Positions 10,109 to 61,615 of a stretch of 64,000 nucleotides of DNA are shown here, one piece after another. This stretch comes from Phytoactinopolyspora halophila. GTDB taxonomy: Bacteria > Actinomycetota > Actinomycetes > Jiangellales > Jiangellaceae. The notes under the pieces are model-generated. The model had not been told where the DNA came from, did no database searches, and was given only the letters and a program-made list of their open reading frames with translations. The translations under genes and the position numbers were made by a program. How positions within the stretch are numbered: position 1 is the first letter of the stretch; each line of letters begins with the position of its first letter. The stretch is from the NCBI RefSeq assembly GCF_003287285.1, contig NZ_QMIG01000009.1, positions 1 to 64,000 on the forward strand. The letters are read 5' to 3'.

Positions 10109-10200
10109 CCGAATGATCATGTTTGGTACGTTTCCTCGGGCCATGACACGTCTGCAGTCGTGTCATGGCCCGAGGAAACGTACCAAACATGATCATTCGG
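10109..10200. repeat. 92-bp palindromic element 1 (42-bp perfect arms)
   Basis: Two 42-base arms (10109-10150 and 10159-10200) are exact reverse complements, separated by TCTGCAGT, itself nearly symmetric. The outer ends read CCGAATGATCATG, which matches the ends of the elements at 30236 and 54464; the core is unrelated to theirs. It starts 10 bp after the response-regulator stop and could form a hairpin or cruciform, perhaps blocking read-through, but no T-run follows. A mobile or spreading intergenic palindrome is a second reading. Confidence 0.9.
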
Positions 10201-30235: not shown

Positions 30236-30292
30236 CCGCTGATCATGAACACTAGTCGCCCTATGTGCCTGACTAGTGTTCATGATCAGCGG
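30236..30292. repeat. Palindromic element 2 (22-bp perfect arms)
   Basis: Arms 30236-30257 and 30271-30292 are exact reverse complements around a 13-base loop. The outer sequence CCGCTGATCATGAACACT matches element 3 closely (TGATCATGAACACT is identical) and shares TGATCATG with element 1. It lies between the cobO stop and the cobC ribosome site, inside the operon, so the hairpin will be in the mRNA and may affect processing or expression of cobC. Confidence 0.9.
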
Positions 30293-38097: not shown

Positions 38098-38290
38098 TCG
38101 TGGAATCGGACTATCCAGTGCCGTGGCCGGTCTCCTGGCTAACGGGTCTACACCCTCCGGCTTGCCTTCCCAGACAGCGCGCTGTCCAGTGGCTCTCCTG
38201 TGCAGGAGATGAGGCCGGGAGCTTCCCGATCACAGTGGCGAGGGCCGCTCCGGCATTGCACCGGATTCCCGTACACCACGGCGGCTCATA
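38098..38290 (-). promoter_or_regulatory. Cobalamin riboswitch 1
   Basis: On the minus strand the region has GGGAATCCGGTGCAATGCCGG, quoted here as GGGAATCCGGTGCAAT, then the B12 box CTCGCCACTGTGATC. AGCCACTGG, GGGAAGGC and GCCAGGAGACCGGCC follow in the right order for the Cobalamin family. The 3' part ends ACGAGGTGATGGAAGGCGG just before the ATG of binding protein A, so adenosylcobalamin probably hides that ribosome site. Its 5' end reaches almost to the cobB stop. It controls the eight-gene operon down to cobC. Confidence 0.93.
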
Positions 38291-38292
38291 CT

Positions 38293-39735
38293 CTACCGGT
38301 GCCGGGCGGCCGCGGCGAACCGGCGGGCCATGTGGGGGTGTCCGGCCCAGTGGACGTGCAGGTACGACGCGTGAACGCGGCTGGTCGCGAACCCTTCGGC
38401 GTGGCCGTCCCACTGCCAGGCCGCCGGGTCACCATGGCCCGGCGTGACCCGGGTGCGGTGGAACTCGTGCGCGGTGACCTGCTGGCTCGCTGGTGCGAGC
38501 AGGTTGTCGGTGGCGGCGACGGCGCTGCGATACCCGAGCGTGCGCCGTTCTGTCATCTGTGCCGACGCGTCGAGCACGCCAGCCATCGGTAGCCCGTCGA
38601 GCTCCCGGCACAGGTAGGTGAGCCCGGCACACTCGGCGACGACGGGGCCGGTTCGCGCGATTTCCGCGACGGCCGTGCGCAGCGGCTCGTTGGCACTCAG
38701 CAGCTCGGCATGGACCTCCGGAAATCCGCCGCCGAAGTACAACCCGGAACATCCGGCAGGTAGCGCGTCGTCGGTGAGGGGATCGAGGTCGACGACGTCG
38801 ATCCCTGCGGCGTCGAGCAGTTCCATGTTCTCGGCGTAGCGGAAGGTGAAAGCGGGCCCGGCCGCGGCAGCGATCACGGGGCGGGCTCGCCGATCACCGG
38901 TGGTGAGCCCGTCGGAGCGGTGCCCGCGATCATCAGAGACGGTTCCCGCGTCGTCGCCGTTCGAAGCGGCGATCTCGGCGCGCGGATCCCATGCCGATCC
39001 CGCGAGTGCCGGCGCGGTGCGGGCGGCCTGGACGACGGCGTCGAGGTCGATGCCGCGGCCGATCCGCTCGCGCAGGGCGTCGAGCACGCGCCCGGATTCC
39101 GGCTCCCTCTCCGCCACGGGGACCAGGCCCAGGTGCCGGCTGGGCACCTCGAGATCGTCGGACCTGTACAGCACGCCGAGAACCGGGATGCCGATCCCGT
39201 CGAGGGCGGCCCGCAGCTCCGTCTCGTGGCGTTCGGAGCCAACCTTGTTCAGGATCACCCCGGCCAGCGACACTCGCGTGTCGTAGGTGGCGAATCCGTG
39301 CACCATGGCGGCGATGCTGCGCGAGATCGCGCGGGCGTCGACGACCAGGACGACGGGCGTGTGGGTGATCGTGGCCACGTGGGCGGTCGAGGCGAATCCG
39401 TCGGTGCCAAGCGCGCCGTCGAACAAGCCCATGACCCCTTCGATGATGGCGACGTCGGCAGGGCGCGATCCCGCCTGGGCGCCGTGCAGGAGCAGTGGAA
39501 CGAGACGTTCCTCACCGTGCAGGTGCGGATCGAGATTCCGCCCGGCCCGGCCCGTGGCGAGTGCGTGGTAGCTCGGGTCGATGTAGTCGGGACCGACCTT
39601 GTGCCCGGAGATTTCGAGGCCACGGTGCCGAAGAGCCGCCATCAGACCGGTGGCGATAGTGGTCTTGCCGTGCCCGGATGCGGGCGCCGCGATGGCGAGC
39701 CGGGGAAGTGCCGCCTCCTGTCGAGTGAGGGCCAT
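38293..39735 (-). CDS. cobB: Hydrogenobyrinate/cobyrinate a,c-diamide synthase
   Basis: A 480-residue CobB. The N-terminal dethiobiotin-synthetase-like ATPase domain has the P-loop PASGHGKTTIATG and HKVGPDYIDPSYH. The C-terminal class I glutaminase domain has LYFGGGFPEVH and the nucleophile Cys in VAECAGLTYLC, with the partner His near HEFHRT and VHASYLHVHW. It amidates side chains a and c using glutamine and ATP. It is transcribed alone, divergently from cobL across a 38-bp gap. Length and motifs are complete. Confidence 0.95.
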   Translation of the reverse strand: MALTRQEAALPRLAIAAPASGHGKTTIATGLMAALRHRGLEISGHKVGPDYIDPSYHALATGRAGRNLDPHLHGEERLVPLLLHGAQAGSRPADVAIIEGVMGLFDGALGTDGFASTAHVATITHTPVVLVVDARAISRSIAAMVHGFATYDTRVSLAGVILNKVGSERHETELRAALDGIGIPVLGVLYRSDDLEVPSRHLGLVPVAEREPESGRVLDALRERIGRGIDLDAVVQAARTAPALAGSAWDPRAEIAASNGDDAGTVSDDRGHRSDGLTTGDRRARPVIAAAAGPAFTFRYAENMELLDAAGIDVVDLDPLTDDALPAGCSGLYFGGGFPEVHAELLSANEPLRTAVAEIARTGPVVAECAGLTYLCRELDGLPMAGVLDASAQMTERRTLGYRSAVAATDNLLAPASQQVTAHEFHRTRVTPGHGDPAAWQWDGHAEGFATSRVHASYLHVHWAGHPHMARRFAAAARHR

Positions 39736-53970: not shown

Positions 53971-55176
53971 TCAGTCCCTCCCCGGGACGATGGAGGACAG
54001 GCCAGTGGGGGCGCCGCCGTTGACGACGTAGCCCTCGCTCGTGGCCACGACGTCGACGTGTTCGGCCTGCGGCCGTCCACAGCGCCGCTCGCATCCGCTG
54101 ATGTGGATCGGTGGGCCGGCCGGAAGTTCGGCGAGGACGGCGCGCGCATCCGTCCGGACATCGGCAGCCGAGGAGGCGCATCCGGGGCTGCCGATGCACG
54201 CGCTCACGCGCAGTGCCGAATCGCCGGGGTTCAGCAGGAAGCCAGCCTCGTCGAGCCGGGCGGTCACGTCAGCGGCGGCGTCGGGGTCGAGACCCGGCAC
54301 GATGACCGAGCGCCACGGCGTGACGACGGCCCGCTCGGGGGCGAGCTGGGCGAGCAGCCGCAGCTGGGCGCTGGTGAGCGTGCCGAAGGCCACGCCGGCC
54401 ACGATGGCTACGGCGTCGCCGGTGGAGTGCCGGTAGACGCCGACGCTCTCCGCCCCGCCCCCTCTCCGATGATCATGAACACTTATCGACCCCATGGGTC
54501 GATAAGTGTTCATGATCATCGGAGGGAGGCGGTGCAGGGATGTGGGATCGAGCTCGCGCACTCGCCAGGCGCCGCTCCCGTCCTCCGCACGCAGATCCAG
54601 GAAGGCGAGCGCGGCGCTGATCATGGCAGGAACGGCGACGTTCCTCTCGGCATGCAGGCCGCTGGCGGCACCGCCGACGACGAGCGCGCCGCTCGTGTCG
54701 TCGACGGCACGCCAGCCGACGTCGAGGGAGCCCGGCGGGAGATCACCTCGACCGTCGTCGAGGCCGAACTGGAACCGGCCGGGAAGTTCCGTCAACCGGG
54801 GCTCGTTGCAGATCGCCGCGTCGAGCTCGGTGACGAGGTGCCGGACGTCGGTGAGGCCCCCACGGATGCCGCTCATCGGAGAGGCCAGGATGTTGCGCAC
54901 TCGCTCGTGTGGGGGCGCCGGAAGCAAACCGGCCCCACTCAGGCGAGCCGCGAGGTCGTCGACGTCCCGGACGGCGCGTATCTGTACGTTGGCGCGCGAC
55001 GTGAGGTGAAGCTTGCCGGATGCGCACTCGTCGGCGCCCCCGGCCAGGGCGGCTAGCTGCGGGGCGGAGATGGCCCCACCCGGGACGCGGATACGCGCGA
55101 GCGGGCCGTCCGCGGCATGGTGTGTGGTGAGAGCTCCGGGGCAGGCATCGGTGCGCTCGCGTACTGACCGGCCCAT
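53971..55176 (-). CDS. cobG: Precorrin-3B synthase CobG carrying an in-frame palindromic insert
   Basis: A 401-residue protein of the nitrite/sulfite reductase superfamily. CobG uses O2, a [4Fe-4S] cluster and flavin or non-haem iron to make precorrin-3B, so it marks the aerobic route. The first half has IRVPGGAISAPQLAALAG and KLHLTSRANVQIRAV. The second half has GVYRHSTGDAVAIVAGVAFG (20) and the Cys-cluster residues SACIGSPGCASS and SGCERRCGRP. Between the halves, palindromic element 3 codes for MIMNTYRPMGSISVHDHR. ATG 55176 follows riboswitch 2. Confidence 0.92.
   Translation of the reverse strand: MGRSVRERTDACPGALTTHHAADGPLARIRVPGGAISAPQLAALAGGADECASGKLHLTSRANVQIRAVRDVDDLAARLSGAGLLPAPPHERVRNILASPMSGIRGGLTDVRHLVTELDAAICNEPRLTELPGRFQFGLDDGRGDLPPGSLDVGWRAVDDTSGALVVGGAASGLHAERNVAVPAMISAALAFLDLRAEDGSGAWRVRELDPTSLHRLPPMIMNTYRPMGSISVHDHRRGGGAESVGVYRHSTGDAVAIVAGVAFGTLTSAQLRLLAQLAPERAVVTPWRSVIVPGLDPDAAADVTARLDEAGFLLNPGDSALRVSACIGSPGCASSAADVRTDARAVLAELPAGPPIHISGCERRCGRPQAEHVDVVATSEGYVVNGGAPTGLSSIVPGRD
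54464..54524. repeat. Palindromic element 3, inside the cobG coding sequence
   Basis: Arms 54464-54492 and 54496-54524 (29 bp each) are exact reverse complements around CAT. The outer part CTCCGATGATCATGAACACT shares TGATCATGAACACT with element 2. Read with cobG it has no stop and adds about 20 residues to the interdomain linker. It is flanked by GC-rich low-complexity sequence (54451-54463, 54525-54535). Confidence 0.92.
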
Positions 55177-55189
55177 GGACGACCGCCTT

Positions 55190-55384
55190 CCATCACCTCG
55201 TGGAACGTCGCTTGCAGTGCCGTGGCCGGTCTCCTGGCTGACGGATCCACACCCTCCGGCCTGCCTTCCCAGGTGGCGCGCCACCCAGTGGCTCCCTTGA
55301 CGGGACGGCCGGGAGCTTCCCCGATCACAGTGGCGAGGGCCGCTCCGGTTTCACACCGGATTCCCATACGCCACGGCAGTGAAC
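55190..55384 (-). promoter_or_regulatory. Cobalamin riboswitch 2
   Basis: Minus-strand sequence has GGGAATCCGGTGTGAAACCG, the B12 box CTCGCCACTGTGATC, GAGCCACTGGG, GGGAAGGC and GCCAGGAGACCGGCC. Its last part, CACGAGGTGATGGAAGGCGG, is identical to riboswitch 1, and the conserved core is nearly so. It lies right before the cobG ATG and controls cobG-cobH-cobIJ. Confidence 0.93.
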
Positions 55385-55425
55385 AGTGTACCGGATCGGC
55401 ATCCGGCGCCGTTTTTTGGAACTCA

Positions 55426-55491
55426 CTTCTTGGCTCTGCGGAACGTCCAGAGCCCTCGATGCCGCTCTGGACGTTCCGCAAACCCAAGAAG
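55426..55491. repeat. Long imperfect inverted repeat, 27-bp arms
   Basis: 55426-55452 and 55465-55491 pair with a few mismatches in the middle; CTCTGGACGTTCCGCA and its complement form an unbroken 16-bp stem, with CTTCTTGG/CCAAGAAG outside. It lies between riboswitch 2 and the lipoprotein gene, which are divergent. Its ends differ from the TGATCATG palindromes. Possible roles are a transcription block between the divergent units or another palindromic repeat family. Confidence 0.75.
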
Positions 55492-55642
55492 TCGGCCTTG
55501 CTCGCCGTGACGAGGGTGAATCCGTTCCGCGGCGCGCAATCTCCGTCCGGCTTCGCGTCGTACAACCGGTGTCCGAACACCTCGGATGGACACCAGGTCC
55601 GGTGAGACGTGCCCATCCGGACGACCGATGCTTGGAGGTTCG

Positions 55643-61199: not shown

Positions 61200-61445
61200 G
61201 TCACCCGCACCCGGATCGGCGGACGACGCCGGGCAGTGTCCTGGCTTCCGGATCGTCACCTGCCCTCGGCCTTCCCGAGTCGCGTGATCGGTGTGGGCAA
61301 GCGCCAGCGAGTCGAGCAGGCGCCTCCGTCACCGATCCAGCGCCCCAGTGGCTTGCGGTGAGGGCCGGCTCCCCGGTCACAGTCGCGGGACGGCCCCGGT
61401 ATCGGGCACGCGAGGTGCCCTCACCGGCGTTCCTGCCGTGACGTC
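61200..61445 (-). promoter_or_regulatory. Cobalamin riboswitch 3 (divergent type)
   Basis: Minus-strand elements in order: GGCAGGAACGCCGGTGAGGG, the B12-box variant GCGACTGTGACC (instead of GCCACTG), AAGCCACTGGG, GGGAAGGCCGAGGGCAGGTG and AAGCCAGGACACTGCCCGGC. The P4-P6 core is recognisable but the peripheral stem is longer than in riboswitches 1 and 2. It precedes cobN alone. The remaining gap to the OsmC gene holds nothing else I can identify. Confidence 0.9.
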
Positions 61446-61615
61446 GGATGGTCGACTCCGATCCTACGGGACCGTGGAATGTCGAGTCCGCCCCTGTCCC
61501 GGACACGGCGTCCGACTCTCGACTTCGACCTCGAGACATGCGGTAAAAGGGCCCGAACGGCACAGTTCCTGCCTGTCTGGGTGTCGAAGTCGCGCGAACG
61601 CGAGGCGTCGATCAG

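Follow-up and report, generated by a model that had tools for sequence, protein, structure and literature searches.

The palindrome within cobG very probably represents a dispersed repeat that is non-autonomous, can form a hairpin and spans about 50 bp, or about 80 bp once the outer arms are counted; the repeat belongs to a wider class of elements in the Jiangellaceae. It lies in the window, the whole stretch of 64,000 nucleotides analysed here, together with the following features.

54464 to 54524, no strand assigned: the palindrome as first named, with 29-bp perfect arms and a 3-nt centre, CAT.
54470 to 54518, no strand assigned: the 49-bp family core, with invariant arms TGATCATGAACACT and AGTGTTCATGATCA, a lineage-specific inner stem and a short loop.
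54452 to 54531, no strand assigned: the probable full element, its outer arms being rich in C on the 5' side and in G on the 3' side, as judged from long-armed copies such as that in paaD.
53971 to 55176, reverse strand: cobG, encoding precorrin-3B synthase (401 aa); the frame is open across the element, which lies in the linker joining the two enzyme halves.
55207 to 55390, reverse strand: a cobalamin riboswitch 5' of cobG, a context in which cobG looks regulated and intact.
30240 to 30288, no strand assigned: another member of this family, lying between two called genes at distances of 4 and 11 bp.

The perfect arms of the cobG palindrome (54464-54492 and 54496-54524) were confirmed, as was the cobG frame running through them without stop or frameshift, both of which had been described in the original prediction. 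The arms stretch to 54459-54529 (34 bp) at 94%. The fold of the single-stranded DNA was calculated at -43.7 kcal/mol, against -13.4 kcal/mol for shuffled sequences (z = -12.6), and 0 of 200 shuffles equalled it. The proposal that the inserted unit measures 61 bp did not hold; including the C-rich and G-rich outer arms, the unit at cobG is probably about 80 bp, roughly 54452-54531.

The identity of CobG was supported by a TIGR02435 score of 261 bits (curated cut-off, 235), and an AlphaFold model (mean pLDDT 86) resembles nitrite/sulfite reductases along its whole length in structure comparison. The element occupies codons 220-236 in frame (MIMNTYRPMGSISVHDH) and this copy encodes PMIMNTYRPMGSISVHDHR, the peptide from the element region being MIMNTYRPMGSISVHDHR. 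In the model, its residues lie where a helix (211-224) ends and in a segment of low confidence (residues 231-240, about 53). The coding-usage score of the element codons is -0.22, below the cobG average of +0.20, as expected for a guest sequence. The element was absent from every other CobG examined in a protein comparison with relatives. The linker, from the ..VREL end of the first half to VGV.. of the second, is 35 aa here and 33, 33, 35 and 35 aa in the four closest CobG proteins. The expectation of about 20 extra residues in CobG was thus not borne out, and net insertions were found instead in paaD and in an acyl-CoA ligase gene; likewise, alignment of CobG proteins found the insert missing in all relatives, as anticipated, but no clean added length. 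Because the linker matches the 33-35 aa of the four closest relatives, the native linker appears to have been lost: the comparison suggests that the element replaced native residues, or that these dropped out later, so that the copy would have displaced the native linker with the length of the protein unchanged. Alternatively, the element could have entered a linker that was already short. With the element in place of the native linker, CobG is of normal length and presumably still functional.

Two explanations confined to cobG were weighed. The symmetry might be a by-product of a conserved linker peptide, and helix 211-224 of the model does coincide with a linker start that is helix-like in relatives too. 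No such peptide is found in the CobG of relatives, which lack that linker sequence, and the same DNA is mostly extragenic. As the family is dispersed outside genes, a conserved peptide is refuted as the source of the symmetry, and the chance that it accounts for the palindrome is negligible. Neither of the two outcomes that the original prediction had named as refuting it was thus observed. The hairpin might instead be a selected regulator of cobG, for example a message attenuator, rather than a tolerated guest; it is very stable and cobG is under a cobalamin riboswitch, but the element also occurs in three unrelated genes and at over 100 intergenic places, while no other CobG carries it. We regard such a role as very improbable. 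Other cobalamin genes come after cobG, and the window contains three cobalamin riboswitches (38108-38295, 55207-55390 and 61214-61482). An inverted repeat at 55425-55492 (29 bp, 93%), which separates the cobG riboswitch from the neighbouring gene, is unrelated to the TGATCA family.

That the palindrome is a dispersed repeat inserted in frame, as originally proposed, was upheld by copies elsewhere. The host genome contains 133 copies of TGATCATGAAC-N10..40-GTTCATGATCA with exact 11-bp arms, 87 with exact 14-bp arms, and no match to a reversed control pattern, so that the number greatly exceeds chance; three further unrelated genes are hit. The relative noted near 30236 was indeed intergenic and of the same family. 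The same arms were found in 5 of 21 other Jiangellaceae genomes, with exact-arm copies numbering 107 in P. halotolerans, 93 in P. limicola, 46 in G004 (of the host's genus), 35 in P. endophytica and 1 in G003. None were present in the remaining Jiangellaceae genomes or, elsewhere in the class, in any of 275 genomes. On this sequence evidence, the repeat appears specific to the genus of the host genome and Phytoactinopolyspora. The type of inner stem differs by lineage, each having its own.

With a looser pattern, all 22 of 22 Jiangellaceae genomes gave matches, most carrying tens to 215 TGATCAT...ATGATCA palindromes. These are mostly 49-50 bp with differing interiors, for example TGATCATCGGCACTT in Haloactinopolyspora; two other actinomycete genomes held few, 2 and 4 copies. 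By their sequence, the elements belong to a family-wide class of TGATCAT...ATGATCA palindromes of about 50 bp whose interiors are lineage-specific. We found no paper on this repeat family in the literature. A second family of long perfect palindromes, with 40-42 bp arms (AATGATCATGTTTGGTACGTTT...), was observed at 10109-10200 of the window and at G000 C12:167324-167413, C5:104830-104917 and C9:70331-70418. At several other places just the inner ~50 bp of this palindrome (ACGTTTTCTCGGGCC...) is present, as if a hairpin lay within a hairpin.

The occurrence of a short, invariant word as inverted pairs where genes end recalls a DNA uptake sequence whose pairs double as terminators. Uptake words are also present singly, in large excess. 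Here, solitary arms are at about chance level: 0.86 Mb contained 2 exact ones outside elements, 1 of which is a decayed element. This candidate failed, there being no excess of single arms, and its probability is close to nil.

The placement of the elements was surveyed in 1.65 Mb of whole contig stretches, with targeted stretches added in an enlarged set; genes were called by a codon-usage script, so that individual boundaries are approximate. Only 3 of 56 elements were intragenic although 87% of the sequence is coding. Gene 3' ends held 42 of the 53 non-genic copies (37% of random intergenic placements), and 16 of the 53 lay between convergent genes (4.6% at random). In the enlarged set of 87 copies, which was partly chosen by target, 69 of 83 were at 3' ends (p 4.5e-18). 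Among these 3'-end copies, 24 of 69 were convergent (p 1.7e-6), an excess beyond the general 3' preference which favours some use at gene ends. A useful role there, as a two-way stop or an mRNA-end hairpin, is plausible, if somewhat short of probable; the copies at gene ends would persist as harmless or as useful in this manner. A canonical intrinsic terminator was ruled out by the lack of a T-tract after the hairpin, the 3' flank being G-rich (T 0.08-0.18).

The elements also affect how genes end. Two of the three frames through the element contain stops on both strands, which leaves a single open frame. The element supplies TGA in one frame and GAT CAT GAA CAC TAG/TAA in another, which is why -DHEH, or the first codon of the element, forms the end of many genes. 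Only the remaining frame lacks stops, on either strand, and it reads (M/L)IMNT......S.SVHD(H/Q) or close variants. Unrelated proteins with the common tail -DHEH, whose stop codon lies inside the repeat, were observed at G000 C12:317742, C25:90286, C25:90304 and C25:296066, and further tails of this kind at C6:98959, C17:35583, C59:8090 and C77:27611. In the convergent pair at C25:90271, the two stops are drawn from the two arms of one copy.

Four intragenic copies are in frame, and all four use the one open frame of the element and lie in inter-domain linkers. Besides that in cobG, they are as follows.

C12:181399-183039: the acyl-CoA ligase copy, between AMP-binding and AMP-binding_C (Pfam).
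C12:319562-321391: the CydD copy, between the membrane and ATPase domains (Pfam).
C69:61394-61993: the PaaD copy, between FeS_assembly_P and Zn_ribbon_PaaD (Pfam).

In PaaD, relatives read PVPLTLGPTVRRVRCP and the host genome PVPLTLEPAPSP[MIMNTSGPMWSESVHDH]GRGGGSAVRCP; the protein is thereby about 24 residues longer, an addition that includes the 16-bp outer arms. A clean empty site is present in G004, P. limicola, P. alkaliphila and five others. In the acyl-CoA ligase, eight relatives have a short loop, again a clean empty site, and the loop of P. halotolerans and P. endophytica contains an in-frame element with the inner stem of its own lineage (G010:C14 L161:10839 and G012:C22 L162:9919). 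P. alkaliphila has an empty site and nests in the tree among the occupied genomes, those of the host, P. halotolerans and P. endophytica. For the ligase copies of the latter two Phytoactinopolyspora species there are two readings, parallel insertion and the concerted change of an old copy. In the CydD of eight relatives, the linker is variable and lacks the element. At one intergenic site, two species share a copy at the same place with stem changes on both arms, and the site is empty in P. limicola and P. alkaliphila. In P. halotolerans, a further copy lengthens, at its C-terminus, a protein near the cobalamin genes that is predicted to be chelatase-like. Selection would remove nearly all genic copies, those in flexible linkers excepted.

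The stems of the copies were then compared. Arm positions 0-11 are nearly invariant among 52 copies of 49-50 bp. The stem varies both inside and outside this arm, yet several positions are paired beyond shuffle expectation: position 16 is T-A, G-C or C-G, and position -1 is C-G or A-T. Mismatched stem pairs read in the sense orientation were G-U in 49 cases and A-C in 41. As this reveals no bias towards the RNA strand, the stem symmetry may be maintained at the DNA level, and the same counts argue against RNA-level selection on the stem. The outer arms are C/T-rich on the 5' side and G/A-rich on the 3' side. In young-looking copies they are perfectly complementary over 15-22 bp with a sequence that differs in each copy. 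Insertion into pre-existing terminator hairpins was considered as an explanation for these unique outer arms and rejected, the arms being equally unique and perfect in the paaD and cydD copies; at the paaD site in particular, a pre-existing hairpin is contradicted by relatives without those outer arms.

These data bear on a broader alternative, that the repeats are not mobile and are instead fixed functional sites, binding a chromosome-organising or RNA-end protein or serving as two-way terminators, which arose through duplication and conversion on a local scale; translation of the cobG copy would then be incidental. Arms invariant across 11-14 bp, stem changes that come in pairs, the strong 3'-end and convergent enrichment, and a length of 49-50 bp kept between genera despite different interiors all fit such sites. 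They do not account for relatives that differ in empty and occupied sites, nor for copies within coding genes. The lineages moreover differ in their type of interior, each type being present in as many as 133 copies, and this indicates that copies spread. We consider fixed sites rather unlikely and favour the spreading repeat.

The means by which the repeat spreads was approached by comparison with known systems. Like REP/BIME elements, it is a high-copy hairpin, mostly extragenic and at gene 3' ends, and mobilisation by a RAYT (Y1) transposase, as for those elements, was therefore considered. Unlike these, it is fully symmetric, and the foot in its profile is CCGC/CCGA, with neither GTAG nor CGTC. 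A search for Y1_Tnp (PF01797) was negative in the host genome and 13 family members (0 of 22 genomes in the family tally) while positive controls were detected, so that this candidate failed and is highly improbable. MITEs, including ERIC and RU elements, have intragenic copies (PMC2759123, PMC10969869). The present element resembles them in being non-autonomous, with conserved inverted ends and occasional in-frame genic copies, but it is palindromic throughout and neither a parent insertion sequence nor a target duplication was found. No longer element with the same ends was present in the sampled part of the genome, solitary arms being at about chance level in 0.86 Mb, and no direct target duplication was evident at the copies. 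The flanks are inverted, not direct, repeats, and TGATCA, being self-reverse-complementary, could mask a 6-bp duplication. We infer that copies are made by a trans-acting machinery recognising the conserved ends or the hairpin, other than a Y1/REP transposase. SPRITE-type terminator-like repeats and two-way intrinsic terminators share the strong gene-end hairpin, often convergent; in contrast to them, the element has no T-tract, an invariant arm sequence and some genic copies.

Rickettsia palindromic elements (RPEs) are described as in-frame insertions in genes (reviewed in PMC10969869 and PMC3733652). The element shares with them a dispersed palindromic family (133 copies) of which several members are translated in frame within functional genes that are unrelated to each other, a recognisable peptide encoded by the single open frame, and orthologues with an empty site (paaD and the ligase; the cobG orthologues lack the element but the linker is length-neutral). 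It differs in size (about 50 bp, or about 80 bp with arms, against about 150 bp), in being a perfect hairpin chiefly at gene 3' ends with lineage-specific interiors, and in its host, a free-living high-GC actinomycete of another phylum. About 5% of its copies are in genes, compared with nearly half of the R. conorii RPEs as reported. The likeness to RPEs drawn in the original prediction accordingly stands for the in-frame invasion of protein genes and not for a lengthening of CobG, and is best read as analogy rather than kinship. We place the element with the known small hairpin repeats of which some copies insert into genes in frame. The placement at gene 3' ends, the single open frame, the four in-frame linker copies and the empty sites are new beyond that prediction.

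A more specific proposal can be made tentatively, as a possibility well short of an even chance. The elements may constitute a new class of mobile hairpin of the Jiangellaceae, with constant TGATCAT ends and length, a stem rewritten in each lineage and no REP or known transposase, copied onto gene ends with newly made, perfectly complementary outer arms (C/T-rich, of site-specific sequence, up to 22 bp) and supplying -DHEH stop tails and inter-domain linkers.

Most known cases of palindromic repeats invading protein genes in frame come from intracellular bacteria whose genomes are shrinking; weak selection offers a natural explanation there. Here it occurs in an actinomycete with a 5-Mb genome, and the survivors are found only in inter-domain linkers, in four unrelated enzymes. 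These four survivors allow the tolerance of proteins to be measured and suggest a source of new linker sequence. With its constant ends and lineage-specific interiors, the family offers a natural experiment on how hairpin repeats spread without a REP transposase.
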